From IMG/VR virus record IMGVR_UViG_3300009703_002114, positions 1 to 25,161 of that record: DNA of 25,161 nucleotides. One strand, given 5' to 3'. This DNA comes from a virus. A model generated the notes under the pieces. It was not told the DNA's origin, searched no databases, and saw only the letters and a program-made list of their open reading frames with translations. Below, one piece after another: positions 4,269 to 25,161 of the stretch. Position 1 is the first letter of the stretch. Each line of letters opens with the position of its first letter. A program made the position numbers and the translations under genes.

Positions 4269-4823
4269 CTATCCTCCAAACTGACCACTACCGATAGGTA
4301 TGGTTATAACTGTCTCTGTACCGTCTTCTGCTATAATAGTCAATACAATAACTTCTTCTCCGATAACACAACCTTCCATCTCAGCTGTATTACAAGTAGT
4401 TTTTTGATATGATATTGTATTTCCTTCTAAAGCAAAACTACCGAATGTTGCTTGTACACAGGTAGGATCTACTGTAAGGTCACATTGTTTAAATAATGAT
4501 TCAACTAACTGTTTAGAAAGTTGAGAATAAATTCTACTTTCCAAGTTCCTCATGAACTTAGCCATAGTAGTATTTTCAGCTTCTCTTTGAGCTGCTAATA
4601 AAGCTGACTCTATATCTTTTTGAATAGCGTCACGCCTTGACTTTTCCTGATTCTCAATAGTAAGATAATGTGCTGATGTACCTATACCACTGAAGCTCGG
4701 ATTTTTAAATTTATGTGTTAACTCATCTGCAGATACAGAAGGAGTTAAAGCAAATATTGAGATTAAGAAGATACCTATTAAAGTAACTACTTCAAATTTA
4801 TCTCTAAGTTTTTTTATCTTCAT
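4269..4823 (-). CDS. csgF: CsgF-like curli assembly protein
   Basis: 184 aa from ATG 4823. An upstream in-frame ATG (4859) gives 12 extra charged residues before the signal peptide and is less likely. The signal peptide ends near 'TPSVSADE'. The mature N-terminus 'ELTHKFKNPSFSG' is the CsgF signature, matching the F-x-N-P-x-F segment of E. coli CsgF that plugs into the CsgG pore. 'FMRNLESRIYSQLSKQL' corresponds to the helix after it and 'TVITIPIG' to the C-terminal strands. Unlike E. coli CsgF it has four Cys (C-x7-C and C-x7-C) in the C-terminal half. In bacteria CsgF couples secretion to nucleation at the cell surface. It comes just before csgG and overlaps the upstream membrane-protein gene by 20 nt. 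Confidence 0.88.
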   Translation of the reverse strand: MKIKKLRDKFEVVTLIGIFLISIFALTPSVSADELTHKFKNPSFSGIGTSAHYLTIENQEKSRRDAIQKDIESALLAAQREAENTTMAKFMRNLESRIYSQLSKQLVESLFKQCDLTVDPTCVQATFGSFALEGNTISYQKTTCNTAEMEGCVIGEEVIVLTIIAEDGTETVITIPIGSGQFGG

Positions 4824-5130
4824 GTTGTTTCTCTGCGAGAGCTTCCTTTTCCTCGACATCTTCTAAGAACTTTTGTCTCTCTCTATATTCTAATACGACA
4901 TTAACCTTTTGTTGTAATCGTATCATATCTTGGTCAAGCATCCTTACTTGATCTATCAACCTGATTAATTGCATGTGCATTTTCTCAATTTCAGGTTCTA
5001 ATTCATTAGAAATGAATTGCCAAACATAATATATAAAATATCCCATACCAACGGCAAGGACAATCGGAAAACCATAATCATTAATTAGTTGAACAATCGT
5101 AGGATCGTTACTTATAGCTATTTCGTCCAT
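4804..5130 (-). CDS. Small membrane protein with coiled-coil tail
   Basis: 108 aa. One transmembrane helix at about residues 23-42 ('PIVLAVGMGYFIYYVWQF') follows a short acidic N-terminus. A long charged helix 'EIEKMHMQLIRLIDQVRMLD' with heptad spacing then continues to a Lys/Glu-rich end, predicting coiled-coil assembly. Its topology and 'MGYFI' core match the preceding gene (5130-5423), so the two may be diverged copies or partners. It starts by a TAATG overlap with that gene and overlaps csgF at its end, so it belongs to the late csgF-csgG unit. No family is recognised. A holin-like or pore-anchoring role is possible but unproven. Confidence 0.72.
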   Translation of the reverse strand: MDEIAISNDPTIVQLINDYGFPIVLAVGMGYFIYYVWQFISNELEPEIEKMHMQLIRLIDQVRMLDQDMIRLQQKVNVVLEYRERQKFLEDVEEKEALAEKQHEDKKT

Positions 5131-5501: not shown

Positions 5502-5825
5502 TTAGATTGAGAAAGATTCACCACAACCACAATAAGCAGTTGCGTTTGGATTAACAAAGGTAAATCCTTCATTTATACCGTGATATTGATAGTCTAGTTG
5601 CATACCATGTAGATATTCTACTGATGCTTGGTTTGTCCAAATACTAAAAGTCCCATAATTGACTTCTAAATCATCTTCGTCTGGTTCTCCTCTTAGAAAA
5701 TCAAACTCGTAAGCAAACCCATTACAACCACTACCTTTAACTCCAATCCTTATGTTAGGATTTTCATGTTGTTGTGTTTTCTCTTGAAGCTTTATAAGTG
5801 CTTCGTCTGTTAGTTCAACTATCAT
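5502..5825 (-). CDS. IscA/HesB-type iron-sulfur cluster carrier
   Basis: 107 aa, the usual length of A-type Fe-S carriers (IscA, ErpA, HesB). It shows the three conserved cysteines: C34 in 'VKGSGCNGFAYEF' and C99/C101 in 'TAYCGCGESF'. In bacteria these proteins bind and pass Fe-S clusters to apoenzymes; HesB-like genes are known in marine T4-like phages. Here it may serve host metabolism or phage Fe-S enzymes such as QueE, which is inference. It follows the 54-aa membrane gene by 4 nt, under a late-type promoter at 6024-6031, and is closed by a terminator. Confidence 0.92.
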   Translation of the reverse strand: MIVELTDEALIKLQEKTQQHENPNIRIGVKGSGCNGFAYEFDFLRGEPDEDDLEVNYGTFSIWTNQASVEYLHGMQLDYQYHGINEGFTFVNPNATAYCGCGESFSI

Positions 5826-9274: not shown

Positions 9275-9715
9275 TTATCTTTCCCATGGAAAGACAATCC
9301 AATGTCCGTTGAGAGGATTACTATAAACAATATCTTTAGCATTTTCTTTACCAAACAAACAGTAACCATATACTTCTGGCATTGCTGATGGTCTAGTTCT
9401 ATTCCTTTTTACAAATTCAATTACATTATTCATAGTATAACCTGTGTCGTAAATATCGTCAACAACTAATATCTTTTGAACTTCATCAAAAGTTTTTGTA
9501 GTAGCATTATGCATCCAATAAGGTTTTTTATCTTTACCATCTCTGGTTTGAAATCCTACAATAGACATTGGTACATTTCTAATATTAGATACATGAACAG
9601 CCATTGGTAAACTACCTCGATAGATACCTACAACATGGTCAAACTTTAACCAATCGATACCTTTCATATCTTTTTCGTAATCAGACCAAGTGTATTGATG
9701 TTTATTATTATACAT
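9275..9715 (-). CDS. Gpt-like purine phosphoribosyltransferase
   Basis: 146 aa, close to E. coli Gpt (152). The PRPP-binding motif 'ILVVDDIYDTGYT' lies at 82-94, an 'YRGSLPMAVHVSN' loop near 32-44, and the C-terminal 'WIVFPWER' matches the W-x-x-F-P-W-E end of xanthine-guanine phosphoribosyltransferases. The reaction would be base plus PRPP to give the 5'-monophosphate. Lying between the DpdA-like and DUF6884-like genes, it may salvage the guanine released when DpdA swaps the base in DNA, or charge a modified base; that is inference. It overlaps the dpdA-like stop by 8 nt. Confidence 0.85.
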   Translation of the reverse strand: MYNNKHQYTWSDYEKDMKGIDWLKFDHVVGIYRGSLPMAVHVSNIRNVPMSIVGFQTRDGKDKKPYWMHNATTKTFDEVQKILVVDDIYDTGYTMNNVIEFVKRNRTRPSAMPEVYGYCLFGKENAKDIVYSNPLNGHWIVFPWER

Positions 9716-11000
9716 CTAAAACTCCTGGCCAATGTTCAGGTACTTTCTCTGGAGCTCTTTGTCTTGATAACCAATTATTAGTAAATTCATCATAGGAAGT
9801 AATAGAACCGAGACCTGTTGTATCTACAGGATTATTAATTCTTCTATCCAACTCAATCATAAAATTACCAATAGTATTTGTGACCCATAACCATGGTGTT
9901 AAATATCTACCATGTATTGCTGAATCATGGTCTTTCCAAAATCTTCTATCACCATTTACATTTTCTACTGACCATTTAGTTGAATCATTTATTAATTGCA
10001 TTGGTTCAGTAATACCAAAATCATTTAATGTTTCTCTGTCATATTCAAATAGTTCATTGATAACAGGAAGTAATTGGTCTGAATGAATTTGAGATAATCC
10101 TTTCTTTGACCTATGAACAACATCTACATCAATATTAGTAAATTCTTTATTTCTATATCTTGAATAAAACCAAGATGAAGCGTGAGAAGATGAATCATAA
10201 GATAGATTCTCAATAAAACTAAAGTAATCAGGTGATAGATAGAACGGAGATAAAGCTTCGTGATTACCAACACCCAATAAATGAACATTGTTTTTAATTA
10301 CATCAGGTATCTGATATTCTTTCATTGCATAAATCATTTCACATCTATGAGCGAATGAGTTACCATTACATAGTGAACTTGGAGCTACACCACATACAAA
10401 CATATCAATTTCATCATCGGATAGACCATTACATATCAATTCGATATATTCTCTGTATGTTTCTACTGATTGACCTTGTGATATTAACATCATCTTTGCT
10501 TTAGAGTCTTCTTGTTTGAATACTTCTATTTGTCTTTTAACATTAGCTAATGTTGCTGTAGCAGCTCGTTTGATATCACTTCTATCAAATCTTCTACCAA
10601 GTAATGATGCTTTCATAGAGTTACCACCAATAAGTGATAAATCAAACTCAATAGGTATTTCATCAAATATCATTGCAACATCACAATACTTTGCTTGATG
10701 ATGATATACTTTATCTTTTAACTCTGGTGTAATACCTTTTGATGTTCTTGCCATTTGTAGACCACCTGAGTCTGCAAACAAACGATGCCATGAGTCATTC
10801 ATTGTTTCTGTCATAGTCACACCATGTTTTCTTTCTTGATGTGCGTTGTATAGTAATGATAAATTTTGATTATCAAATCTATTGTCTAAATCAGTTATTT
10901 TCTGATTCATGTGTTTTATATAAGGTTCTGCGACTACAGGATTGTAATAGAGATCATCAATCCCCATAGTTAGACCTGAAACTACATATTCAAACTTCAT
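9708..11000 (-). CDS. dpdA: DpdA/TGT-like transglycosylase for 7-deazaguanine insertion
   Basis: 430 aa. TGT-superfamily landmarks: 'FADSGGLQMA' (Asp77, general-base position of D-S-G-G-F-Q), 'CDVAMIFDEIP' near 106-115, 'ISQGQS' near 173-178, 'HLLGVGN' near 241-247 and 'YDSSSHASSW' near 268-277, whose Asp is the likely nucleophile. The C-terminal zinc Cys3-His site of tRNA-guanine transglycosylases is not seen. This fits the DpdA group, which exchanges guanine in DNA for preQ0 rather than modifying tRNA. Neither phage tRNA in the window has a GUN anticodon, so they are not queuosine substrates. It lies between folE and gpt, overlapping folE as ATGA. The exact DpdA subgroup and target motif cannot be told here. 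Confidence 0.86.
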   Translation of the reverse strand: MKFEYVVSGLTMGIDDLYYNPVVAEPYIKHMNQKITDLDNRFDNQNLSLLYNAHQERKHGVTMTETMNDSWHRLFADSGGLQMARTSKGITPELKDKVYHHQAKYCDVAMIFDEIPIEFDLSLIGGNSMKASLLGRRFDRSDIKRAATATLANVKRQIEVFKQEDSKAKMMLISQGQSVETYREYIELICNGLSDDEIDMFVCGVAPSSLCNGNSFAHRCEMIYAMKEYQIPDVIKNNVHLLGVGNHEALSPFYLSPDYFSFIENLSYDSSSHASSWFYSRYRNKEFTNIDVDVVHRSKKGLSQIHSDQLLPVINELFEYDRETLNDFGITEPMQLINDSTKWSVENVNGDRRFWKDHDSAIHGRYLTPWLWVTNTIGNFMIELDRRINNPVDTTGLGSITSYDEFTNNWLSRQRAPEKVPEHWPGVLDV

Positions 11001-11656
11001 GATTGTAATGCTAACTTCATAAATTCTGATCTTACAGAATGTTTGTGAAAGAAATAACCACCTAACTTAGATGTAGTCATACCAGAGTTTTGATCTCCAA
11101 TCCCTCTAGACTTTACACAAAGATGTTCTGCTTGTACAAGAACAGCAATATTATCAGTACCCAAAATATATTCTAGTGCATAGAAAATTTGTTCTGTCAT
11201 TCTTTCTTGAACTTGAGGTCTTCTTGCAAAGAAGTTTACAATTCTATTCAATTTAGAAAGACCCACTACATTTTCATTTGGTATATAAGCAACTTGTGCC
11301 ATACCATTAAAGTTGACTAAATGATGTTCACATAATGAGTGGAATGTAATATCCTTTTGTATAATCATTTGGTCATAACCCATTTTGTTTTCAAATACTG
11401 ATACTTTTGGAAATCGATTATATGATAATCCTGAACATAATTCAGAAACATACATCTTTGCAACTCTATCAGCTGTACCAGCTATTGAATCATCTTCTCT
11501 ATCTAGACCCAATACATCAACAACAATCTCCATGTTATCTCTAATTAGTTCTATCTTCTCCTCGTCTGATAAAGAAGTTTCAGTAATAGGTGTTTCAACA
11601 CCTTTATTGACTAGATATTTAGCAACCTCTAGTCCAAGTTTTCTATCTGTTTTCAT
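10997..11656 (-). CDS. folE: GTP cyclohydrolase I
   Basis: 219 aa, the usual FolE length. The zinc and catalytic residues are present: 'SLCEHHLVNFNG' (C109, H111, H112), 'VVGLSKLNRIVNFFARRPQV' near 130-149 and C180 in 'AEHLCVKSRGI'. FolE turns GTP into dihydroneopterin triphosphate, the first step toward preQ0 and also folate. With queD, queE and queC in the same run it supplies the deazaguanine pathway. The start at 11656 has a GGAG site. The 49-nt gap upstream carries a small hairpin (ATGTG/CACAT) and an AT-rich stretch but no promoter I would trust. Confidence 0.96.
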   Translation of the reverse strand: MKTDRKLGLEVAKYLVNKGVETPITETSLSDEEKIELIRDNMEIVVDVLGLDREDDSIAGTADRVAKMYVSELCSGLSYNRFPKVSVFENKMGYDQMIIQKDITFHSLCEHHLVNFNGMAQVAYIPNENVVGLSKLNRIVNFFARRPQVQERMTEQIFYALEYILGTDNIAVLVQAEHLCVKSRGIGDQNSGMTTSKLGGYFFHKHSVRSEFMKLALQS

Positions 11657-11705
11657 TTTTTCTCCATTTTTTCATGTGGTTTTGTCACATATAATATAAT
11701 GAACC

Positions 11706-12371
11706 CTAACCGAAATAGTAAGGGTTCTCTTTAGTTTCAAACCTTTTCATAGGTTGTAACTCACTTCTTTGTAAATCCATAAGATACAGAACACCTGCTT
11801 CTGTTTCTTCTGAATTTTCAAATTCTGTTGATGAAAGATTTAAATCTTCATCAAAATACAAAGGACTTATTTCATTTCTGAATAAAGTCAATGCATGATT
11901 TCTATCTTCGTATCTAGCACAACTAAATGTACCGTCAACATCATCTAGTTCATTACCTAACAACAAGTGTCTATGTAATAATTCTGTATCCCAATCTAGT
12001 TTTCCGTAATCAGTTCTCCATTCTTGAACTTGATAATCTTTTATAATACCATTGTGCCATAATAAATCACTATTGATATTTGATGGGTGTGTTTTTGTAT
12101 TTTCTGTCGTTGGTGCTTGTACATGACCTAAATAGTATGTTTTAAAATGTTGAGGATTATCTTCTGTAAATCCTGTAACTTTATCTGTAAACAAACCTTC
12201 ATTTTGATATGTCAAGATATGTTTTACATGAGCTTCATTATTATAATTGTAGGCAGTATATCTACTCACTACAAACATAGATGTTGAATGAGAATATTTA
12301 CCTCTATACTGATTCAAATCTGCTAGTTCTAAGAATTTTTCTTTATCACTACTTCCAAATATTGCACACAT
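11706..12371 (-). CDS. Class II glutamine amidotransferase next to QueC
   Basis: 221 aa when started at ATG 12371, which makes 'MCAIFG' the N-terminus. After Met removal Cys2 becomes the Ntn nucleophile, so the longer upstream start is rejected. Other class II features: 'NQYRGKYSHSTS' near 20-31, 'GHVQAPT' near 84, 'LLWHNGIIKDYQ' near 103-114 and 'WDTELLHRHLL' near 124. The domain frees ammonia from glutamine for a partner. Its ATG overlaps the queC stop (TAATG). In archaea and some phages a Gat-QueC pair or fusion converts preQ0 to the archaeosine-type base G+, so this may do the same in DNA. No synthetase domain is attached. Confidence 0.85.
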   Translation of the reverse strand: MCAIFGSSDKEKFLELADLNQYRGKYSHSTSMFVVSRYTAYNYNNEAHVKHILTYQNEGLFTDKVTGFTEDNPQHFKTYYLGHVQAPTTENTKTHPSNINSDLLWHNGIIKDYQVQEWRTDYGKLDWDTELLHRHLLLGNELDDVDGTFSCARYEDRNHALTLFRNEISPLYFDEDLNLSSTEFENSEETEAGVLYLMDLQRSELQPMKRFETKENPYYFG

Positions 12372-13072
12372 TATACTTTCCAATCTATATCTATATCATA
12401 AGGAATAGGGTCTTTACGACCTACCTTCATGAAGTTCATTATTCTTTCAGCACAAGAAGGACACTTACCACAAGATAATACACCTTGAGGATTATAACAA
12501 GTCAATGTATGTTTGAGTAAATCAAATTGTCCTAATTCAATTGCTACTTCTATTTCATCTGCTTTTGACATTTGACTAAAAGGAGCTTCTATCTCAACTT
12601 TATGTTGACGATTTTGTGAAGCTACATTATTCATTGTGTCTACAAACTTTTGTGTCGTGTCCCAATAACCATATTCATCATGAACTTGTAATCCTGTAAT
12701 TACTTTATTACAACCTTGTACTTCTGCATGACTCATTGCAATAGATAATAGTATCATATTTCTGAATGGTACATAAGTTACTGGTTGTGGGTCACCTAAC
12801 ACTTCTTTTATATTTGGCATGTCAACTTCTGTACCTGATATATTTGCTGACATTGGTTGAGCTATTGTACCCAATACTGATAAATCAAGTATCGTATGTT
12901 TTACTTCTAACTCTTTACATAAATCAGAAGCTTTCTCAATTTCTAATTTTTGTTTCTGATTATAATCAAATGTCACAGCTTGAACATTATCTTTACCATA
13001 CTTATCAACGCACATCATAGTAGCGACTGAACTGTCCAGACCACCACTTAATACTACTAATACTTTATCCAT
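12371..13072 (-). CDS. queC: 7-cyano-7-deazaguanine (preQ0) synthase
   Basis: 233 aa, full length. PP-loop 'SGGLDSS' at 9-15, 'VTYVPFRNMILLS' near 98-110 and the zinc cysteines C192, C201, C204 and C207 in 'TCYN' and 'SCGKCPSCAER' are all present. QueC converts 7-carboxy-7-deazaguanine with ammonia and ATP to preQ0. QueF, which would reduce preQ0 to preQ1 for queuosine, is not in the window. It overlaps queE by one base and the amidotransferase by the TAATG junction. Confidence 0.97.
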   Translation of the reverse strand: MDKVLVVLSGGLDSSVATMMCVDKYGKDNVQAVTFDYNQKQKLEIEKASDLCKELEVKHTILDLSVLGTIAQPMSANISGTEVDMPNIKEVLGDPQPVTYVPFRNMILLSIAMSHAEVQGCNKVITGLQVHDEYGYWDTTQKFVDTMNNVASQNRQHKVEIEAPFSQMSKADEIEVAIELGQFDLLKHTLTCYNPQGVLSCGKCPSCAERIMNFMKVGRKDPIPYDIDIDWKV

Positions 13073-13938
13073 TATGTTCCTATCTGATTACCAAAAATAT
13101 AACAATGTACTCTTGCAGATACATTATATCCTCTTTCCATTGTTTGAATTGTAATTTCTTTTGCGTTATCATCTTGAGATTCTTCTGTTGCACCAACAGG
13201 CATTATCCATATCGGATACATTACACCTGCGTCTCTGAATTTTATTATTGATTCTTCAATCTCATCCCATGAAGCATCTGAACCATTACAAACAAACTTT
13301 AGTTGTCCTACTTCTGATATATCATGATATTGTTTTACTATATCTGGACATACAGCATCTTGTTCACCACTTGTATTAAACATCTTCGGACTTACTGAAA
13401 AGAAGTATTCAACTTCACCACTCATACTCATTAAATGATTATGAAATACAGTTTCTATTGGTCTTGTTCCATTTGTTTCCCATGTAATATACTTAAATCT
13501 TTTACTAAACTTTTCACGACACAATCTTTCCATTTCTTCTAGAATTTTTACAGTTTTCTTTTGTGCAGCTTTCATTAATGGTTCACCACCTGTAAATGCT
13601 ATATGAGTATTTTCATCATACATTTGATTGAATAGTTTTAATGCAACTTCTTCTTCTGTTTCATTCTTTTGTATCTTTGCAAACTTCTTTGACCAAGAAT
13701 AAGATGAATCACAACCATACTTCCATACAGGTAAATCTTCTACATTCTTAACTTCAATAATATCAAAATCTTGATATGGTAATTTATATGTAGAAGGGTC
13801 TGTTGGGTCGTCTTGTCCAAAACCATTACATTCAAGATTACAACCAAAAAATCTTAACCAGGTTGTTGGTACACCTGTGTAGTGTCCTTCACCTTGAATA
13901 CTTTTAAAAATTTCCGAATACAGCACTATTTGCTCCAT
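13072..13938 (-). CDS. queE: 7-carboxy-7-deazaguanine synthase (radical SAM)
   Basis: About 288 aa from ATG 13938. A GTG at 13926 has a better ribosome site (GGAG, six bases) and may be the true start. 'YSEIFKSIQGEGHYTG' and 'PTTWLRFFGCNLECN' mark QueE, and 'IAFTGGEPLM' is the SAM-binding GGEP motif. It rearranges 6-carboxytetrahydropterin to CDG. The cluster cysteines are unusual: in place of the compact C-x14-C-x2-C of E. coli QueE there are C37 and C41, then C80 in 'KYGCDSSYSW' after a ~38-residue insertion (numbered from a Met four codons before 13938). It overlaps queD by about 35 nt and queC by 1 nt. Confidence 0.94.
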   Translation of the reverse strand: MEQIVLYSEIFKSIQGEGHYTGVPTTWLRFFGCNLECNGFGQDDPTDPSTYKLPYQDFDIIEVKNVEDLPVWKYGCDSSYSWSKKFAKIQKNETEEEVALKLFNQMYDENTHIAFTGGEPLMKAAQKKTVKILEEMERLCREKFSKRFKYITWETNGTRPIETVFHNHLMSMSGEVEYFFSVSPKMFNTSGEQDAVCPDIVKQYHDISEVGQLKFVCNGSDASWDEIEESIIKFRDAGVMYPIWIMPVGATEESQDDNAKEITIQTMERGYNVSARVHCYIFGNQIGT

Positions 13939-14341
13939 GTTCGAATACACGAACTGATTTTACAATAACTCTTTCACATTCATATCTTTCACGACAAAAC
14001 TCATATACTTCTTGAGCAAAAGCTTCACAACCAACATTAGACATTACTCTAAGATCAATAAGTCCTTCATTCTCTAACTCTACAAAAGACTTCATCATTG
14101 GATCATCTTCTGCTATTACTGTTGTGTGGTCAAAAGTATTTTTTAAATATTGTTTTAATACACCCAAGTCTCCGAAATCTATAACCCAATTTCTATCGTC
14201 TAAAGTTTCTGACTCGAATGTTATTTCAAAACCTAATGCATAACCATGAATTAGATTACAATGAGAGTTTGCTCTCCATTGTCTAAATGCACATGAATGA
14301 CCTGTCTCATTCCCGTATGTTTTTATTACTTGATACTTCAA
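13904..14341 (-). CDS. queD: 6-carboxytetrahydropterin synthase
   Basis: 145 aa. 'TGHSCAFRQWRANSHCNLIH' has zinc ligand His15, catalytic-position Cys28 and His32; 'NWVIDFGDL' and 'FDHTTVIAEDDP' complete the QueD/PTPS fold. The usual H-G-H is H-G-Y here (Tyr34 for the third zinc His), so metal binding may differ or use His27. QueD turns dihydroneopterin triphosphate into 6-carboxytetrahydropterin. The start is a TTG at 14341 overlapping the gp44 stop (TTGA); no ATG occurs before the zinc motif. This is the left boundary of the block inserted after gp44. Confidence 0.92.
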   Translation of the reverse strand: MKYQVIKTYGNETGHSCAFRQWRANSHCNLIHGYALGFEITFESETLDDRNWVIDFGDLGVLKQYLKNTFDHTTVIAEDDPMMKSFVELENEGLIDLRVMSNVGCEAFAQEVYEFCRERYECERVIVKSVRVFEHGANSAVFGNF

Positions 14342-15276
14342 TTTAATTTACACTCCATCATTAATTCAGTCATACATGCTACCATGTTGACTTCTTGGTC
14401 AGCAACAAATGCTGACTTATATGTATAATCACTCAAAATAATAATTGCTTGTGGCACACTACTATTTTCCATTCTAGTAAACAAACTATCGTATATCTTT
14501 CGATAGATAGCTTGTGGATCATTATGTATATTTAGCGCTACCCATTTTCTCATTTTTGAGAATTCTTTATCACGAATAAAACTCAATACTTCACTCAATG
14601 ATTCATCATCTAGATTTGCTAGTACTCCGCTATCAATCTTACCTGAAGCTGAATACTTTTGTAATTCATTAAGAACTCTACGAAAATCCGGAAAGAACTT
14701 TTGAATTAATTCGACTACAACTTGTTCATTGTAGTCTATATTCTCTTTTTTAAGAATATCTAATACTCTTTGAAAGATACCATTTGCTATCTGTGGTTTC
14801 TGACCTGATTCAATAGTAAAATCAACAACACTACATCTTGAATGTAATGGAGAAATGATTCTATTTTTGTAATTACAAGTAAAGATGAATCTACAATTCT
14901 TTGAAAATTCTTCTATAAAACCTCTAAGTGCTGGTTGAGTTGATTGTGGATTTAGATAATCTGCTTCATCTAAGATAACAATCTTCGGACCACCACCAAG
15001 TGAAACTGTAGATGCAAACTGTTTAATCTTGACTCTTAATGTATCAATGTTTCTTTCTTCTGAACCATTAATCATCACAAAGTCTGCATCCAATTCATTA
15101 CATAGTGCTTTTGCTACAGTTGTTTTACCAACACCAGCAGTACCACACAATAACAAATTCGGTATTTCTTTATTGTTTACAAAATCTTGAAATATCTTTT
15201 TTGTTTCTGTTGGTAGAATACAATCATTAATATTTCTAGGTCTGTATTTTTCAACCCATAGAAAATCTTCTTTCAT
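14338..15276 (-). CDS. 44: Sliding clamp loader ATPase (gp44-like)
   Basis: 312 aa, matching T4 gp44 (319). 'WVEKYRPRNINDCILP' start; Walker A 'GTAGVGKT' at 45-52; Walker B 'VILDEADYL' near 100-108; sensor 1 'TCNYKNRI'; and the arginine finger in 'HSRCSVVDF' (R147). gp44 forms the ATPase part of the clamp loader with gp62 and opens gp45 onto DNA. It lies 2 nt after the gp45 stop. Its stop overlaps queD rather than gp62, unlike T4. Confidence 0.97.
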   Translation of the reverse strand: MKEDFLWVEKYRPRNINDCILPTETKKIFQDFVNNKEIPNLLLCGTAGVGKTTVAKALCNELDADFVMINGSEERNIDTLRVKIKQFASTVSLGGGPKIVILDEADYLNPQSTQPALRGFIEEFSKNCRFIFTCNYKNRIISPLHSRCSVVDFTIESGQKPQIANGIFQRVLDILKKENIDYNEQVVVELIQKFFPDFRRVLNELQKYSASGKIDSGVLANLDDESLSEVLSFIRDKEFSKMRKWVALNIHNDPQAIYRKIYDSLFTRMENSSVPQAIIILSDYTYKSAFVADQEVNMVACMTELMMECKLN

Positions 15277-15278
15277 TA

Positions 15279-15947
15279 CTAACCTTCATTATAATTTGAA
15301 TCTGGTTCAAGAGCGATGAAGTATTCAACTGCCATGTCCCTGTTAGTAAAGTGAGCTATTCCTTTTGATGATACAAAGACTGTATAGTTACCACCTACCA
15401 CTTTAATGTTTTCCATTCTTAAAAACATTTCGTATGTAGAACCATTACCTTGAGCTACTACTCTACTATAAACATTAGAAGTAGCATTCTTTTTGTCTTT
15501 GACTGTTAATGAAACTGTTGTACCATCACTAGATAAAACCATATCCGGTAATGATAGTACCGAAGAAGCTTTCAATAAACTTCCTAATACTTCTTCATCA
15601 AGATCAAATACAATCTCTGGTTCCGGCATTACAATATCTTTTTGTGGTGATATAACCATTTGTGGATCAGCATAGTAATATGTTACTGAATTATCACCTT
15701 CAGTCACATTTACTGACTCTCCATTGAACTCAAAGTCTGGTGTATCAAACAATGATACTGCTCCGAGATATTCTGATAAGTCATAGATTGAATGTTCTGT
15801 ATCGAATGTTTCATCTACGACTGCTTTCGCGAAAATATTTTTCATCGCGCTTACTGTTGACAGCTCATTACCAGCTTTAACAGTAATACCTGAATTAATT
15901 GTTGAAAAATTATTCAGGACATTAAGTGTGTTGTTACTTAATTTCAT
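15279..15947 (-). CDS. 45: Sliding DNA clamp (gp45-like)
   Basis: 222 aa from ATG 15947, which has GGAG six bases upstream; the longer reading frame upstream is rejected. 'MKLSNNTLNVLNNFSTINSG' is typical of T4-type gp45 starts, and the length agrees with T4 gp45 (228). The C-terminal 'AHFTNRDMAVEYFIALE' completes the fold. The trimeric clamp tethers the polymerase and in T4 also activates late promoters. It overlaps the DUF3310 gene by 14 nt and precedes gp44, the T4 order. Confidence 0.93.
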   Translation of the reverse strand: MKLSNNTLNVLNNFSTINSGITVKAGNELSTVSAMKNIFAKAVVDETFDTEHSIYDLSEYLGAVSLFDTPDFEFNGESVNVTEGDNSVTYYYADPQMVISPQKDIVMPEPEIVFDLDEEVLGSLLKASSVLSLPDMVLSSDGTTVSLTVKDKKNATSNVYSRVVAQGNGSTYEMFLRMENIKVVGGNYTVFVSSKGIAHFTNRDMAVEYFIALEPDSNYNEG

Positions 15948-16245
15948 CACTTTCTCCATTATTATTATCATGCACATGAAGTGCAATTATACCATAATGT
16001 AAAACCTTTAATAAGTCTTTACGATTATAGCCTTCCTTTTTACCATAGCGTTGAGCATACTTGAGAATATTTCCTATACAGAAACCTTCTCCATGTCCTC
16101 CGTCTATTATAAATTCTGTTGCTTGAAATTTGTTTTGATTATAATGTGAACCTTTATCTCTAGAATAAGTTGAGTCTATATATTTACCTAACTCTTTTAC
16201 TAGTTCACCTTCACTAAATTTATAATCTATCTTTTTCAAACTCAT
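15934..16245 (-). CDS. DUF3310-family protein
   Basis: 103 aa. 'SHYNQNKFQATEFI', 'GFCIGNILKYAQRYGKKEG' and 'KDLLKVLHYGIIALH' follow the DUF3310 pattern (H-Y, G-N-x-x-K-Y-x-x-R, K-x-D-L-x-K), a small phage family sometimes called nucleotide-kinase-like but without proven activity. Its ATG stands exactly six bases after the TATAAT of a consensus promoter (16252-16279), so the promoter would give a leaderless mRNA; it can also be read from the upstream gene, which it overlaps. It precedes gp45. Confidence 0.8.
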   Translation of the reverse strand: MSLKKIDYKFSEGELVKELGKYIDSTYSRDKGSHYNQNKFQATEFIIDGGHGEGFCIGNILKYAQRYGKKEGYNRKDLLKVLHYGIIALHVHDNNNGESDEIK

Positions 16246-16445: not shown

Positions 16446-16608
16446 TTCTTTGTTTCAACCAATCTCTATAAGATAAATCTTCACCTTTTATGTTTTCTTG
16501 ATGTAAATACTTTTGATATTCTTTTTTACTTTCTTTAGACTTGTTCATAGTGTTTACCCAACCATCAGAACTATCTAACCATTCTTTTGAATTAATTTCT
16601 TTTCTCAC
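16438..16608 (-). CDS. 56-aa protein with GTG start, unknown
   Basis: GTG at 16608 overlaps the stop of the SET-domain gene as GTGA, and the TAA overlaps the next gene. The product is hydrophilic with many Lys and Glu ('MNKSKESKKEYQKYLHQENI', then 'YRDWLKQRNE') and is probably helical. The tight overlaps on both sides are the main support. No family recognised. Confidence 0.62.
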   Translation of the reverse strand: MRKEINSKEWLDSSDGWVNTMNKSKESKKEYQKYLHQENIKGEDLSYRDWLKQRNE

Positions 16609-16937
16609 GCTTCTATATCATCATACCCAACAGTATAAAATACAGTTAATTCTTCACCTTCTTCTATAGGTTTAATTGTATACAGTTCTCTTTGGTTTCC
16701 GTCATGATAATGAATATTCATATTAATAAAACAATTAGGATTCTCTGAATGATTTATAAAACCACCAAGAGGTGTTCTTATCCAATCCCATCTATTTGCT
16801 TCCCATACATGAGTCACACCAAGAAAGATACCTGCTTTCAAATTTTCTTTTGTAAATAATCCATTACCATTTATAGGTGAACTAGCAATAGTCAACCCAT
16901 CAGGTAATGGTTTGTAATGTTGTGGTCCAAATTTCAT
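16605..16937 (-). CDS. SET-domain protein (putative lysine methyltransferase)
   Basis: 110 aa from ATG 16937, which overlaps the upstream stop as ATGA; a longer frame upstream is not needed. The SET-fold motifs are all present: 'GNGLFTKENLKAG' (24-36), 'FINHSENPNCF' (60-70, the N-H-S-x-x-P-N-C signature) and 'IEEGEELTVFYTVGYDD' (91-107, G-E-E-L-x-x-x-Y). SET proteins transfer methyl groups from SAM to lysines. No pre- or post-SET cysteines are seen, so it is a minimal form. The target could be a phage or host protein; that is unknown. Confidence 0.85.
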   Translation of the reverse strand: MKFGPQHYKPLPDGLTIASSPINGNGLFTKENLKAGIFLGVTHVWEANRWDWIRTPLGGFINHSENPNCFINMNIHYHDGNQRELYTIKPIEEGEELTVFYTVGYDDIEA

Positions 16938-17422
16938 AATGTAAACCACTCTGGTGTTGGTCTTTTTTTCCAAACACTAAAACTACTTTTCTCACCCATG
17001 TAATATTTTTGATACGCTTCAACTGAATCTTCACCTTTATATTCATCTGGCATACATTGTGGTGGTTGATAAAACTTTTTATTGATTGGTATATTCTTTG
17101 GAGGTGTTCTTAATGTCTCTCTTAATTTTAAATCTGTCATGTGTCCTTTCTCATAACGATATGTGTATTCATCACATAGTGCTTCAAACAATCTGTATAA
17201 CCACCAATAGTTGTATACATTATCTCTTACCCATATTGTACTTGGGTGATTAACATGAGCTCTTTTGTACATAAACAATTCGTCAGCTTTTTCATCACCG
17301 TCCAGAACTCTATGAGCTGTACATAACATTTGTGCTGACTCAAGTATCATCTTTACACAATGTTTATCATTATGTTCTATAGCTGATATCTCAGGACTTT
17401 CATTCAAGTAAAATATATTCAT
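16934..17422 (-). CDS. Conserved phage protein, unknown function
   Basis: 162 aa. Clear pattern of His, Trp and Cys: 'MNIFYLNESPE', 'DKHCVKMILESAQMLCTAHR' near 19-38, 'HVNHPSTIWVRDNVYNYWWL' near 56-75 and 'KFYQPPQCMPDEYKGEDSVE' near 116-135. The many conserved-looking His/Asp residues hint at a metal-binding helical enzyme, and the type resembles a protein often seen in T4-like marine phages, but I know no proven function. It overlaps the SET gene (ATGA). Confidence 0.8.
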   Translation of the reverse strand: MNIFYLNESPEISAIEHNDKHCVKMILESAQMLCTAHRVLDGDEKADELFMYKRAHVNHPSTIWVRDNVYNYWWLYRLFEALCDEYTYRYEKGHMTDLKLRETLRTPPKNIPINKKFYQPPQCMPDEYKGEDSVEAYQKYYMGEKSSFSVWKKRPTPEWFTL

Positions 17423-18043: not shown

Positions 18044-18119
18044 TGGAGCTATCGGTCAGATTCGAACTGACGACCTGCTGATTACAAATCAGCTGCTCTA
18101 CCAACTGAGCTACGATAGC
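18044..18119 (-). tRNA. tRNA-Thr (anticodon TGT)
   Basis: Full cloverleaf: acceptor GCTATCG/CGATAGC, D arm GCTC..GAGC, anticodon stem GCTGA/TCAGC with loop TTTGTAA, T arm GTCAG TTCGAAT CTGAC, discriminator T and an encoded CCA (18044-18046). Reads ACA codons, which are frequent in AT-rich genes like these. Confidence 0.95.
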
Positions 18120-18124
18120 GAATT

Positions 18125-18200
18125 TGGTGGAGCGAATAGGAATCGAACCTACGACCTACTGGATGCAAACCAGTCGCTCTCCCTACTGAGCTACCGCCCC
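18125..18200 (-). tRNA. tRNA-Ala (anticodon TGC)
   Basis: Acceptor GGGGCGG with TCGCTCC (wobble pairs), D arm GCTC..GAGC, anticodon stem ACTGG/CCAGT with loop TTTGCAT, T arm GTAGG TTCGATT CCTAT, discriminator A and encoded CCA (18125-18127). Its first 10 bases are also the end of the upstream zinc-ribbon gene. Five bases separate it from tRNA-Thr. Confidence 0.94.
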
Positions 18201-19367: not shown

Positions 19368-20567
19368 TTAAAATAAGTCCTCATTATTATCGGGTTCTGA
19401 ATATTCCGAAGCATGCTTAGCTTTAAGTTCTTCTAATTCTTGTTCATAAGAAGAAACAGTTTCATCAACTTCATTAGCTTCTTCATCTACTTTAGTGTAG
19501 AGGTCTAAGAATGTTGCTTTAGTTTCTGAATCGAACCTTGCAACACACATTTCAATCGCTTTCAATTTGTTATCGAACATTTTGAAAGCTTGAACAATGT
19601 GAACTAATCTTCTAGTTGATATCAATTCATCAATTGCACCTTCGTAAAAACTTTTTCTGATAACATCAGCCCAAGTAACTAAGTTAGTTGCAAAATCAAT
19701 TGCACCTTTAACTTCAAGTTTTTCAAATTCTTTGACAAGAATTTTTTTCTCAATTGCATTAGAAGGATATTCTTGTTCCATTGTGATTGAGAACCTTTCT
19801 AAGAAAGCTTCGTTAAGAACATTAGTTCCAATAAATCTTCCATCGTCTGAACCTTTACCTTTAGTGTTCGCTGTTGCGACTATTGTAAAACCATCTTTTG
19901 GAGAAACATATTCACCAGTTTTTTTGTTTAAGTAACCTTTACCTTCAAGTATTGATTGAAGACACATAATTTTGTTAGACGCTAAATCAATTTCGTCAAT
20001 TAAAAGAACAGCACCTTTTCTCATTGCTTTGAGAACTGGACCTTCTCTGAAAACAATGTTTCCATCTACCAAAGTATTTGAACCAATAAGATCATCTTCA
20101 TCGGTTTCAATAGTAACATTGACTCTGTAACATTCTTTTTTGAGTTTAGCACATATTTGTTCAACCATCATAGTTTTACCATTACCTGATAAACCTGTAA
20201 TGAAAACTGGAAAGAACAATCCTGAATTCAGAATTGATTTTAAATCTGTAAAATGTCCAAATGGAACATATTCTTTAACAGTTTCAGGAACTACTGAAAC
20301 ATCATTCAAAAGAACATTAACTGCTCCCGTTGAAGTAGGACTTACCGGTAAGTCAACTACATTATTTTGAACTGCAACTCCTGCAAGTTCTAATGAGTAA
20401 GTACCATGTCCTACTCTGTAAGTTGGTTTTTGTAACCAAGAAGGATTTGGACATCCTGTCTCTGCACAAATCTTTTTAATTTGTGACTTTGAAAACTCAG
20501 CTTGTCCTGGATAAAGTCCAGCAGCTGCGTCAATAAATTTCTCATGTTGAGCTGTCAATTTAATCAT
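19368..20567 (-). CDS. MoxR/CobS-like AAA+ ATPase
   Basis: 399 aa. Walker A 'GLSGNGKT' at 125-132, 'ETDEDDLIG' near 154-162 (typical of CobS-like proteins), Walker B 'VLLIDEIDLA' near 187-196 and sensor 1 'IVATANTKG' near 229-237. The N-terminal ~100 residues are a separate domain and the C-terminus is acidic. Marine T4-like phages carry this gene annotated as cobS (cobalt chelatase), but no other cobalamin gene is near. The upstream gene is a VWA protein, and MoxR-type AAA+ ATPases generally work with VWA partners. GAGGT precedes the ATG at 20567, which overlaps the stop of a 12-codon mini-ORF (TAATG). Confidence 0.92.
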   Translation of the reverse strand: MIKLTAQHEKFIDAAAGLYPGQAEFSKSQIKKICAETGCPNPSWLQKPTYRVGHGTYSLELAGVAVQNNVVDLPVSPTSTGAVNVLLNDVSVVPETVKEYVPFGHFTDLKSILNSGLFFPVFITGLSGNGKTMMVEQICAKLKKECYRVNVTIETDEDDLIGSNTLVDGNIVFREGPVLKAMRKGAVLLIDEIDLASNKIMCLQSILEGKGYLNKKTGEYVSPKDGFTIVATANTKGKGSDDGRFIGTNVLNEAFLERFSITMEQEYPSNAIEKKILVKEFEKLEVKGAIDFATNLVTWADVIRKSFYEGAIDELISTRRLVHIVQAFKMFDNKLKAIEMCVARFDSETKATFLDLYTKVDEEANEVDETVSSYEQELEELKAKHASEYSEPDNNEDLF

Positions 20568-20614
20568 TATATATTTACCTCACTATTTAATTGATTATTT
20601 TTCATTATGTACAT

Positions 20615-20644
20615 AGTATAACAAAAGTGTACCAGCGGTTTCAA
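20615..20644 (-). promoter_or_regulatory. Promoter of the AAA+ gene, copy A of a conserved promoter repeat
   Basis: TTGAAA at 20644-20639, an 18-nt spacer CCGCTGGTACACTTTTGT and TATACT at 20620-20615. The spacer is nearly identical in copies B and C. Leader of about 40 nt before the ATG at 20567. Confidence 0.75.
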
Positions 20645-20652
20645 GTTTTGTA

Positions 20653-22941
20653 TCATACCGCCATTTGTGAAACGAACTTGTTAAGTATAACTCTTTGTTT
20701 CATTTTACTATTACCTGCTTTTACTAAAGCTCTTTTTAGAACTCCTTTGTTTGCACCTTCTTCTACATTAAGTTCATCTTCATTGTAGTTAAGTTTCATT
20801 TTCTTTTGATTAATCATGATTGCTAAATCATAACAACCATCATCAAAAGTAGTTGCAAGATTATTAAATTCTTTTCTTTTAGTATCATATTCATCACCAA
20901 AGTAGTCACATTTAGTAGCACAGAATCTTTCTGCATCACTAACTATTTGAGAACCTTTACTAGTAGTAATATAAAATCCAATAGTATTACAATTTGTAGT
21001 ATCTTTAATCCATTTAAGAAGACTATGAGTATCCCTTCCATTTTTAAATTTTGTAGTAGTATTATATCTTCTGTCTACTAAATGTTTAGTTCTACCATAA
21101 CCATTCGAAAAGACATTATGACTTGAACCATCGGTTAGTGTAATTAAACTTGTAATGTCTAAATTGTTTTGTAGTTGAAAATCTTGTATCAAGTCTCTAA
21201 CAATTACTAGAGAATGGTCAAGAGGAGTACCACTCAAATTCAATCCATGTGGACATGGAAAGTTTGAGTCATGGTTAGAATCTTCATCATAATAATACCA
21301 ATTATTTTCTATTGACTCAGCTAGTTGAAACCAATTTTCCATTGCTTTTGTAAATTCTGAATTTGATTGTTTCTCATTGTATATTTCTAAAAGTTTAACA
21401 TTACCAAGAGACCAATCCTCTTCATTCTCATTGTTTTGAATTGATTTACCATACATTAGTTTTCTGTAATGATTGTCATAAGCTTCACTTTTTTCTCTCC
21501 AATCATCATCACTTGGAAATTTTTCTTCTATTTCTTTAACTTCTTCTCTTACATAACCATCTGAAAAAGCATAAAGTCTGAAAGGAACTGAAAGTCTTCT
21601 ACAAAACATTGAAAGTAATGTTGCTTGTTCAATAGTTGATTTAACTGTCCCGTGCATTGAACCAGACCAATCTAATAACATTACCAATCCATGATTTTTA
21701 CCTTCTGGAGTTACTTGTACTCTGTTGAAGATATCATCTTTTAATTTGAACAAGTGAAGTTTATTCATATCTAATTCACCTGATTTAGCTGACCAACTTC
21801 TATTGTAAGCTGCAGCTGCTTTTTTCATTTCAAATTCTTTTACCATGTAGTTGATAATTTTTTTATTAGTATCTTGAAATTCTTTTACTTGAGGAGATAT
21901 TTTAGTTCTATCAAAAGATTGACCATGATATGTTCCTGACATTATGTTATCAATTTTTTTGTAGTCAACAATAAAATTTTCATATTTAATTTTATCTTTG
22001 ATTTCAAAATAAGTAGGTTCATTATAACCATAATCATCTTTATTATATAATGATGATTCTTTTTCTCTAAAAGCTTCGTCTGATATTGACTTGTTCATTT
22101 CATCAAGTAATAAACCTTTTGAACCCTCAGAATTTTTTTCATCATTTTCTGTTTCTGTGCCTTCTGATGCATCAGTTGAATTAGTTTCATCATCTGAATT
22201 TTCTGTATCACTTGTATCTTCTGACTTAGCATCAGAACCTTCTTGTTCATTTTCATCTTCTTCATCTGATTCAGAAATTTCTACACTCATTGTTTCACCA
22301 CTTTCATCATCAAGACCAAGTTCTTCCATCATATCTTGAATGTCTAAATCAGACATTGCATCAAGTTCTTCTTCATTTAATTGATTTTGTCTGTCAAATA
22401 GTTCTTCTGATAAAATAACAACTTCGTCCCAAGTCTGTAATTTTTCACATCTTAGAATGTAAGGTAGTTCTTCTTCTGAAAACTGTACTCTTGCTATAGA
22501 ACCTATTTTGAAATGAATATTAATTCTATCAATCAAATTTAGTTTAGTTAAATCTCTATCTTTAAGACCAAAGAAATCTCTTTTAGCTAAATCTTTATAA
22601 CCTGCATAGAATGATTTTCTTAGTCCAGGATATTTTGATTTTATCATTTTCTCAATTCTACAATCTTCAATAACATTTAAGTATCCTTTAAATACCATAC
22701 CTTTATCTGAAACTTTATCATGCCAACCTTCTGATGGTGTATTCAAAGCATGTCCAACTTCATGACCCATGAATAAATCAGTAAGTTCTGGAGACATTTC
22801 TCCTTTAAGAATAGGACATACTAATGTTCTAGATTTAACATCAAAGTATGCTGTTGGAACTGATTTATGAATAACTGTAATGTTCTCTGTAGCCATAAGT
22901 TTAGCTAGAACATCTTTATTTGATTGTTGAGTTGATATCAT
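20653..22941 (-). CDS. HExxH metalloprotease-like and VWA-domain protein, partner of the AAA+ ATPase
   Basis: 762 aa from ATG 22941. An earlier TTG (22977) lies in the -35 box of promoter B and is rejected. N-terminal gluzincin site 'MGHEVGHALNTP' (H60, E61, H64) with the third-ligand motif 'LNVIEDCRIE' (E92). Residues about 210-275 form a very acidic Ser/Asp/Glu linker. The C-terminal VWA domain has the MIDAS motif 'LLDWSGSMHG' (D424, S426, S428) and 'TLTDGSSH'. The acidic linker plus VWA recalls CobT, the partner of CobS; the protease-like domain does not occur in CobT. It is likely a remodelling or proteolytic machine powered by the AAA+ protein; targets unknown. No ribosome site precedes the ATG, which lies six bases after TATAAT. 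Confidence 0.88.
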   Translation of the reverse strand: MISTQQSNKDVLAKLMATENITVIHKSVPTAYFDVKSRTLVCPILKGEMSPELTDLFMGHEVGHALNTPSEGWHDKVSDKGMVFKGYLNVIEDCRIEKMIKSKYPGLRKSFYAGYKDLAKRDFFGLKDRDLTKLNLIDRINIHFKIGSIARVQFSEEELPYILRCEKLQTWDEVVILSEELFDRQNQLNEEELDAMSDLDIQDMMEELGLDDESGETMSVEISESDEEDENEQEGSDAKSEDTSDTENSDDETNSTDASEGTETENDEKNSEGSKGLLLDEMNKSISDEAFREKESSLYNKDDYGYNEPTYFEIKDKIKYENFIVDYKKIDNIMSGTYHGQSFDRTKISPQVKEFQDTNKKIINYMVKEFEMKKAAAAYNRSWSAKSGELDMNKLHLFKLKDDIFNRVQVTPEGKNHGLVMLLDWSGSMHGTVKSTIEQATLLSMFCRRLSVPFRLYAFSDGYVREEVKEIEEKFPSDDDWREKSEAYDNHYRKLMYGKSIQNNENEEDWSLGNVKLLEIYNEKQSNSEFTKAMENWFQLAESIENNWYYYDEDSNHDSNFPCPHGLNLSGTPLDHSLVIVRDLIQDFQLQNNLDITSLITLTDGSSHNVFSNGYGRTKHLVDRRYNTTTKFKNGRDTHSLLKWIKDTTNCNTIGFYITTSKGSQIVSDAERFCATKCDYFGDEYDTKRKEFNNLATTFDDGCYDLAIMINQKKMKLNYNEDELNVEEGANKGVLKRALVKAGNSKMKQRVILNKFVSQMAV

Positions 22942-23662: not shown

Positions 23663-24195
23663 TATAATGCAAATCTTGCTTTAGTTTTTGATATCTTACC
23701 TCTAGCTCTAAATTTTTGTGTTTTTTTAGCTTTCTCGAAAGCTCTTCTTTTTGAAAATTCACCAACTCTATCAATCATCAATATACCATCTAAATGGTCT
23801 AATTCATGTTGAAAAACTCGAGCAGTTAATCCTTCAGCTAGCTGTCCTTCTTCTTTTTGAAGTTCATTTAAATATTTAATAGCTACATGAGACGGTCTTA
23901 CAACTTTAACAAATACATCTGGTAAAGATAAACAACCTTCTTCCATTGTATTCATCTCTGGTGAAAAATCTACAATCTCTGGATTAAAACAAACAACTGA
24001 CTCTGATTTTGTTTCACCTCTCATAGCAAACACTCTAGTCTTATAACCTATTTGGTTTGCTGATACACCTAAACCAGCATAGTCAAACATAGCGTCAATA
24101 AGTTTTTTCTTCAATTCAATAGGATCAACTATTGGATTATCGAAATCAAACTTTGGACATTTTTCTCTTAGTTCTTTTTCTGTTTTTACTATCAT
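23662..24195 (-). CDS. def: Peptide deformylase
   Basis: 177 aa. The three PDF motifs are intact: 'GLGVSANQIG' (41-50), 'EGCLSLP' (86-92, metal ligand C88) and 'QHELDHLDG' (129-137, ligands H130 and H134, catalytic E131). It removes the formyl group from new proteins. The basic C-terminal tail 'RRAFEKAKKTQKFRARGKIS' is longer than in the short phage forms. Phage PDFs are well known in marine T4-like viruses, where they are thought to favour the processing of phage or photosystem proteins. It overlaps gp46 (ATGA). Confidence 0.96.
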   Translation of the reverse strand: MIVKTEKELREKCPKFDFDNPIVDPIELKKKLIDAMFDYAGLGVSANQIGYKTRVFAMRGETKSESVVCFNPEIVDFSPEMNTMEEGCLSLPDVFVKVVRPSHVAIKYLNELQKEEGQLAEGLTARVFQHELDHLDGILMIDRVGEFSKRRAFEKAKKTQKFRARGKISKTKARFAL

Positions 24196-25161
24196 TTTAT
24201 TTTACTAAAGTTATTAATTTTTTCAAATTCAATTATGTTTTGAAATTTCTCATTCATACTTTCACCTTTATGTGAAATAATAAAAGTGTTTGTATTATCA
24301 TCTAGTGTATGAAGTATCTTTAAAAATTCGTCTGTACCACCTTCATCAAGTGAACTATCAAACACTTCATCAAGTATCAGTAAATTTGTATTTACAGAAT
24401 TCTTCAACTTAGCTACTGCTCTCCATGTGAAAAGAAGTGATAAGTCAATTCTCATTTTCTCACCTTCACTAAATGATGAATATGAAAAGTTATCTCTGTA
24501 TCTAGATTTAATTTCTTCATTGAATTCTTCATCTAATTCGAATTGTACAAAGAACTCCATACTAGCTAAATATTTATTAATTAACTTATTCATAATCGGT
24601 AAGTACTGTCTTATTATCTTAGTTTTGATACCACTATCTCTAAGTAATATATCAGCTAGATCATGATAATGTTTTTGATCTGATACATCAGCGTCCATAC
24701 CCTGTAAGAGTTCTAGAGCTTTACGATATTTTTCTAATTTATCTTTATCATCTTCTGTATGTTCTTGTTTTGTAAGTTCTAGAATTTGACCTTCTAATTT
24801 ATCAATATACTTTTCATTAGTGTCTATAAGGTTCTGTTCTTTTTGAATCATTTTCTGAGACTCAGCTATTTCTTTATGTACTTCATTAATTTCTTCAAGT
24901 CTTTGATTAATTTTCTCTATAGATTCACTATGTTGTGTAAGTCTCATATCAAGTTCTTTGATATTTACTGTTCTTTCAGTACATATATGATCTTTATGTT
25001 CTGACTCAATAACTTGTTCACAGGTAGGACATTCATCATTATCTTCATAAAACTTTAACTCTTTAATAAACTTTCTTCTTTCAGTTTCAAAATCTTTTTC
25101 ATCACTCAACATTGTTTGAAGTGAAGCTCGAACTGTATCTTCGTCTTGTATTAGATTCATA
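24192..25161 (-). CDS. 46: Recombination endonuclease subunit gp46, C-terminal part
   Basis: At least 322 codons; the frame is open to the window edge, so the N-terminus with Walker A lies outside and the first ATG in view is internal. A 'CPTC' zinc hook is followed by a long coiled coil rich in Glu, Gln and Lys, then the ABC-type signature 'SSFSEGEKMRIDLSLL' and Walker B 'NLLILDEVFDSSLD' with the D-loop, and the switch His in 'TFIISHKGES'. This is the Rad50/SbcC-like partner of gp47 in T4 recombination and DNA end processing. It is the most upstream gene seen. Confidence 0.95.
   Translation of the reverse strand, partial: MNLIQDEDTVRASLQTMLSDEKDFETERRKFIKELKFYEDNDECPTCEQVIESEHKDHICTERTVNIKELDMRLTQHSESIEKINQRLEEINEVHKEIAESQKMIQKEQNLIDTNEKYIDKLEGQILELTKQEHTEDDKDKLEKYRKALELLQGMDADVSDQKHYHDLADILLRDSGIKTKIIRQYLPIMNKLINKYLASMEFFVQFELDEEFNEEIKSRYRDNFSYSSFSEGEKMRIDLSLLFTWRAVAKLKNSVNTNLLILDEVFDSSLDEGGTDEFLKILHTLDDNTNTFIISHKGESMNEKFQNIIEFEKINNFSKIK

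Follow-up and report, generated by a model that had tools for sequence, protein, structure and literature searches.

The closest described systems to the gene pair reported here combine an AAA+ ATPase with a VWA domain. The cobaltochelatase CobS/CobT has an AAA+ protein and a partner composed of an N-terminal domain, an acidic linker and a VWA domain with a metal-ion-dependent adhesion site (MIDAS); NorQ-NorD and CbbQ-CbbO likewise pair a MoxR-type ATPase with a VWA protein and are known to act on nitric oxide reductase and Rubisco; and midasin/Rea1, which serves eukaryotic ribosome assembly, has a ring ATPase of related sequence and a MIDAS domain in one giant chain and, to our knowledge, no zincin domain. 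We analysed a virus record of 25,161 bases (IMG/VR record IMGVR_UViG_3300009703_002114; the whole stretch is referred to as the window) which encodes on its minus strand a MoxR/CobS-like AAA+ ATPase and a VWA protein carrying a zincin-type HExxH site, and we found that this site is strictly conserved within the family of the protein. The pair belongs to the core genes of marine T4-like phages and is widely catalogued as a vitamin B12 auxiliary metabolic gene, a label which has already been used in ecological inference. In the excerpts of the cited papers on which we draw throughout, cobS is one of 25 cyanophage core genes (PMC3037559), cobST is likewise cyanophage core (PMC8651126), and a MoxR ATPase with a metallopeptidase-fused vWA protein is reported from group 2.2 jumbo phages, with a proposed role in virion assembly (PMC7824862, which places cyanophage P-SSM2 in group 2.1). 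The combination of MoxR and metallopeptidase-vWA is thus already recognised in other phages (PMC7824862); judged from the sequences, this work adds that the family of the window conserves the site strictly, differs in this from CobT and has a fixed setting among replication genes.

The zincin-VWA protein (CobT-like, or 'peptidase' in phages) is encoded at 20653-22941 (762 amino acids, ATG at 22941 and stop at 20653) and is followed after a gap of 85 bases by the ATPase gene at 19368-20567 (399 amino acids). A preliminary description of this DNA had proposed an ATPase with a fused HExxH-VWA module; the parts and their coordinates stand, with the correction that the fusion is between HExxH and VWA and the AAA+ protein has its own gene. 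The zincin-VWA protein matched phrog_459 ('peptidase') over its full length (E = 7.6e-172, residues 17-773 of the 774-amino-acid form starting at TTG to 3-736 of 736), and the ATPase matched phrog_249 ('porphyrin biosynthesis/CobS'; E = 8e-117, residues 85-370 to 100-366 of 380) and PF07728 AAA_5 (3.6e-19). Using tblastn at E up to 1e-5, 463 phage records matched the zincin-VWA protein, mostly T4-like cyanophages, and 849 matched the ATPase; no phage record matched the zincin-VWA protein at 60% identity. The same families, architecture and gene order are found in the cyanophage/pelagiphage phrog_459 and phrog_249 pair (S-PM2p119/p120, HTVC008M), and HTVC008M differs in sequence only (31.8% between the partners, 52.3% between the AAA+ proteins).

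The zincin motif HEVGH occupies residues 60-64 (H60, E61, H64; 22750-22764), and a NVIED motif at residues 89-93 (22663-22677) lies on a helix predicted at 82-103, where E92 or D93 is likely to be the third metal ligand. An acidic linker follows at residues 206-282 (22096-22326), with 42% aspartate plus glutamate in the window protein and 26-51% across the 47 rows of our alignment of relatives. The VWA domain covers about residues 414-762 (20656-21702) and contains a complete MIDAS (D424xS426xS428/T572/D604), of which the first motif, DWSGS, is at residues 424-428 (21658-21672). All of the residues behind the earlier proposal of an intact zinc-protease site with NxxED, an acidic linker and a MIDAS-bearing VWA domain could therefore be located in this protein. 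The HExxH with its downstream acidic ligand forms a conserved zincin metallopeptidase signature, from which zinc binding and proteolysis are predicted.

We found HExxH in the MIDAS-bearing open reading frame (ORF) of 79 of the 80 best viral relatives, the remaining one starting after that region, and in 79/79 relatives of the S-PM2 protein, using a pattern which permitted residues other than glutamate at the catalytic position. Over both sets, 124 of the 158 sequences of this zone were distinct and none was common to the two sets. These two 79/79 scans are the fair counts: the rows of the alignment were picked by a pattern demanding HE..HA, so its invariance at positions 60, 61, 64 and 65 is by construction. 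A chance occurrence of HExxH is ruled out by the same counts, and the loss of the motif in close relatives, which had been named beforehand as refuting the earlier proposal, was looked for with the result that the site is kept throughout.

More distant relatives also carry the site. In Rhizobium-phage-type relatives HE[VIL].H...ED was intact in 25/25 of those which contain the zone, and their N-terminal domain matched at profile level (E = 2.1e-14; score 96.5 vs a maximum of 18.4 in 40 column shuffles). The Vibrio phage ICP2 relative has HECYH, the Gordonia phage GMA2 relative, annotated as hypothetical, has HETGH, and in the haloarchaeal virus HHTV-2 HEVQH...NVLED is found in an ORF adjoining a VWA gene. 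In Pseudoalteromonas phage XG4 (2679-4936 of the locus) the zincin (HEVSH...NIVEDIRIE) and the VWA domain are separate ORFs, with the VWA first and both before the ATPase; this arrangement is a natural split of the zincin-VWA fusion. The site was lost in 5/5 nickie-type relatives (SE[IV]SK) and is replaced by REVST in Stenotrophomonas phage ANB28. The alignment of RHph_N2_6 with nickie (34% across the first 216 residues, E = 1e-32) makes it plain that intact and dead forms in phages are homologous. We rejected the idea that cells have a zincin-VWA family of their own: six of nine matches in genome contigs have gp46/gp47 upstream and were read as phage contigs, a reading which covers all but L082, L087 and L088.

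The AlphaFold2 model of the zincin-VWA protein had a mean predicted local distance difference test score (pLDDT) of 76.0 and a predicted template modelling score of 0.67, with residues 212-270 unstructured (pLDDT < 50). Three strands precede the HExxH helix at 51-67 and the helix bearing the ED pair, an arrangement which, as modelled, fits a small zincin. In a fold search against the PDB, the best matches were the VWA domain of NorD (Z 15.7, root mean square deviation 8.8 for 256 residues) and the MIDAS domain of midasin (Z 15.4, deviation 3.2 for 215 residues); all listed matches cover the VWA half only. A PDB sequence search with the zincin-VWA profile gave matches on the acidic linker only.

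The ATPase has a Walker A motif, GLSGNGKT, at residues 125-132 (20172-20195), a Walker B motif, LLIDEID, at residues 188-194 (DEID 191-194; 19986-20006) and an ATAN motif at residues 231-234. Its profile scored 120 bits against CobS, 58 bits against NorQ and 221 bits against midasin when summed over domains, the best single midasin domain reaching 54.5. An AAA_5-type ATPase thus adjoins a VWA protein with a full MIDAS, which agrees with the resemblance to MoxR-VWA machines noted earlier. In a tree of AAA+ proteins the ATPases of T4-like phages form their own clade (94/93) and bacterial CobS another (100/100), the RHph, ANB28 and nickie ATPases lie beside CobS (90/71), and the ATPase of jumbo phage Atu_ph07 groups with those of DUF2201 partners (100/100). 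The tree had 43 rows (10 of the 29 in the alignment of phage ATPases A2, 12 CobS of 16 found in 30 loci, 8/30 CbbQ-family, 7/9 odd phage ATPases, 4 DUF2201 partners and 2 named phages) and several long branches, and the placement of ICP2, LP-125 and AM24 is unsure. A defence-system scan (PADLOC) matched the ATPase weakly in two cases (E = 1.3e-4 and 0.015) and its partner in none, and membership of a defence system was rejected on these results.

The pair lies within a T4-like replication block, with the order gp46-(zincin-VWA)-(AAA+)-gp45-gp44 in the window. Upstream, and truncated where the window ends, is a gp46-like (Rad50-like) subunit of a recombination nuclease (24192-25160; phmmer with S-PM2/HTVC008M gp46, E = 6e-80), and downstream are a gp45-like sliding clamp (15279-15986; E = 1.3e-53) and a gp44-like clamp loader (14338-15276; E = 5.7e-118). 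Among the 80 viral loci, counting those with enough flanking sequence, the AAA+ gene was next downstream on the same strand in 68/68 with at least 488 bases there, gp45 was downstream in 37/37 with at least 5 kb, and gp46 was upstream in 32 of the 39 with at least 5 kb and not found in the other 7; one locus has gp44, gp62 and regA upstream instead of gp46. The order in S-PM2 is gp47-gp46-peptidase-CobS-gp45-gp44-gp62-regA, some of these genes being separated by small ORFs, and HTVC008M has this same frame with insertions. An annotated DNA polymerase gene lies within about 5 kb of the more distant pairs in nickie, ANB28 and ICP2, and the RHph_N2_6 pair has a DNA ligase and a sigma factor nearby. 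It is from this genomic position that we infer a role in DNA metabolism.

We put at roughly 55% the reading in which a MoxR-type motor grips a target protein by its MIDAS and cleaves or strips it, probably in phage DNA metabolism. By analogy with NorQ-NorD, the ATPase would form a hexameric ring, the VWA domain would dock in its pore and ATP hydrolysis would move the VWA domain. The target would be gripped by the MIDAS face, the N-terminal domain could swing on the acidic linker, and the zincin domain, in which both histidines, the catalytic glutamate and the ED pair are seen, would cut the gripped protein. The least certain step is the job itself, which may be to strip or degrade a protein obstructing phage DNA replication, recombination or clamp-coupled late transcription; this job appears the most likely in view of the fixed place of the pair between gp46/47 (Rad50/Mre11-like) and gp45/44 (clamp and clamp loader). 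Several observations weigh against this reading. By itself, the N-terminal domain matches no Pfam family or PDB sequence significantly; a deformylase, a 2-oxoglutarate oxygenase and tRNAs separate the pair from gp46 or gp45 in the window; gene order alone is no proof of function; and the dead-site relatives (nickie-type, 5/5, and ANB28) are still beside their AAA+ protein, from which it follows that proteolysis is dispensable in some such machines. A more specific version, which we offer speculatively and as a minority prospect, is that marine T4-like phages may have a replication-coupled machine which extracts and cuts proteins stuck on DNA together with the Mre11/Rad50-like nuclease and the clamp, by a logic like that of SPRTN-p97, and that its N-terminal domain could be the active ancestor of the decayed N-terminal domains of CobT (site lost) and CbbO-type proteins (glutamate lost, metal ligands kept).

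Among the alternatives, the one that survives best, doubtful as it is, is a virion-assembly chaperone with a maturation protease. This was proposed for the MoxR and metallopeptidase-vWA pair of group 2.2 jumbo phages, citing an archaeal virus whose tail is assembled by a MoxR-vWA system (excerpts of PMC7824862). That pair (Atu_ph07 ASV44729/ASV44728) resembles ours in that a MoxR ATPase adjoins a protein in which a metallopeptidase-like domain is joined to vWA. However, it belongs to the DUF2201 subfamily (PF13203/PF09967), has HQILH and falls in another AAA+ clade, and the neighbours in the clade of the window are replication genes, not head or tail genes. PF13203 DUF2201_N had no match to the window protein up to E 1, and one relative (the same ORF in loci L123 and L086) reached 18.6 bits, below the cut-off of 23.2 bits. 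ASV44728 itself, encoded at 3254-4543 of its locus on the minus strand, is the published type example for jumbo phages and carries the HQILH, so it may lack the catalytic glutamate; HQ variants were also seen in two bacterial DUF2201 proteins (L163 and L167).

A chaperone for metal insertion or folding, whose zincin-like site would hold a metal without cutting, as NorQD puts iron into nitric oxide reductase, seems improbable to us. It gains from the VWA-type proteins adjoining CbbQ/NorQ-family ATPases, of which 22/29 have H[MLI]A[AG]H and about 26 residues on ED.R[VI][DE]...PGL[RK], aligning with the phage HEVGH...ED.RIE...PGLRK; the HxxxH...EDxR layout is shared and the histidines and the acid are kept, whereas the catalytic glutamate is missing. 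The profile of these 22 partners, which leaves out the seven ORFs without the motif (L132, L147-L152), matched the phage protein with E = 5.6e-6 (N-terminal profile) and 3.9e-5 (full-length; score 49.9 vs a maximum of 25.2 in 60 column shuffles). The proteins are called CbbO-like from neighbourhood only, NCBIfam gave no name for the three that were scanned, and their profile matched no solved NorD chain. The phage clade, on the other hand, keeps the catalytic glutamate in 158/158, and metal holding alone would need none.

A role in cobalamin synthesis, in which viral CobS and CobT would borrow the host CobN and raise the cobalamin supply for nucleotide synthesis, is formally possible as regards the use of host CobN and, taken together, very improbable. 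It was proposed for the viral pair in PMC8651126, whose excerpts treat the viral peptidase label as mistaken. CobS is the nearest PDB match of the AAA+ protein by single-domain score, and the partner has weak CobT matches (TIGR01651, 23.8 bits; PF06213, E = 0.007). These scores are far under the curated cut-offs, which are 759.05 bits for CobT (TIGR01651) and 558.55 bits for CobS (TIGR01650, against which the ATPase scored 86.1 bits). PF11775 CobT_C did not match the window protein at E up to 1, nor the HTVC008M and S-PM2 proteins at E up to 0.1; the RHph_N2_6, nickie and ICP2 proteins exceed its cut-off. CobN was found in 0/9 named virus records (HTVC008M and S-PM2 among them, and most of the nine called complete genomes), in 0/6 viral records behind the loci, and not in the window, which is a fragment. 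The HExxH site has no evident use to a chelatase and was present in 0/30 bacterial CobT, and SAR11, the presumed host type, is without MetH and MetE according to excerpts of PMC12478193. A bona fide cobaltochelatase is rejected on the curated cut-offs and on the AAA+ tree, in which the phage clade stands apart from bacterial CobS; the view of the preliminary description that the pair is distinct from cobalamin synthesis is supported, and the pair is, as far as sequence comparison tells, not a cobaltochelatase. The conserved HExxH, which is also present in HHTV-2, a virus of PMC8651126 itself, speaks against the peptidase label being mistaken.

Least probable of all is a machine for counter-defence or takeover by which a host complex is dismantled, since the destructive role which an active protease would suit, and the MoxR-vWA pairs found in conflict systems (PMC7159879, excerpts), are set against near-universal conservation and fixed core synteny, unlike the patchy spread of host-aimed proteases (PMC7824862, excerpts). 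The earlier suggestion that the machine cleaves or disarms a host complex found no pointer to a host target, the gene order pointing instead to phage DNA replication and recombination.

A relationship to CobT is visible at profile level. The full-length CobT profile matched the zincin-VWA protein with E = 1.7e-6, placed on the N-terminal domain. The profile of this domain alone matched bacterial CobT weakly (E = 0.0048, score 26.3 vs a maximum of 21.2 in 40 shuffles, using 20 of the 30 CobT), and because of this the link rests on the full-length match together with a chain from RHph_N2_6 through nickie to PF06213, in which the nickie N-terminal domain reaches the Pfam CobT family (27.3 bits vs a cut-off of 26.1). 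The RHph-type domain matched that of bacterial CobT with E = 0.0024. On these profile matches, the N-terminal domains of CobT and CbbO-type proteins can be read as decayed zincins. Excerpts of PMC9976466 state that the N-terminal domains of NorD and CbbO are unrelated and that the N-terminal domain of MoxR-associated VWA proteins is not conserved, and in excerpts of the literature pairing the names CobT and CbbO with zincin terms the idea of decay was not found. The series of intact, half-lost and lost sites offers a direct test of the origin of the metal-insertion partners CobT and CbbO. If the zincin site is active, the B12 label would be wrong over hundreds of records and a core replication-linked function would have been overlooked.

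The gene order and the curli genes of the window resemble those of pelagimyophages, suggesting that the host is likely of the SAR11 type. All of the other features are also on the minus strand. Between the pair and the clamp gene are tRNA-Thr(tgt) and tRNA-Ala(tgc) (18044-18200). A 7-deazaguanine-type set at 9708-14341, which suggests modified phage DNA or tRNA, includes a GTP cyclohydrolase (PF01227), QueC (PF06508), a radical-SAM protein which we take to be QueE-like by its position, another ORF which is presumably QueD-like, and a 430-amino-acid ORF without Pfam match which looks like a transglycosylase. A small SET-domain protein, unusual in phage, is encoded at 16605-16973 (PF00856, 2e-10), and an A-type iron-sulphur carrier-like protein at 5502-5825 (PF01521, 1.7e-17). 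The curli-like cluster at 747-4859 contains CsgG (PF03783, 2.8e-52), CsgF (PF10614, 1e-8) and a FecR-domain protein (PF04773). Excerpts of PMC7029224 describe CsgA and CsgB as missing in pelagimyophages; two proteins of the cluster without Pfam match (747-1574 and 2615-3352) have repeats which look curlin-like and are candidates for CsgA and CsgB.

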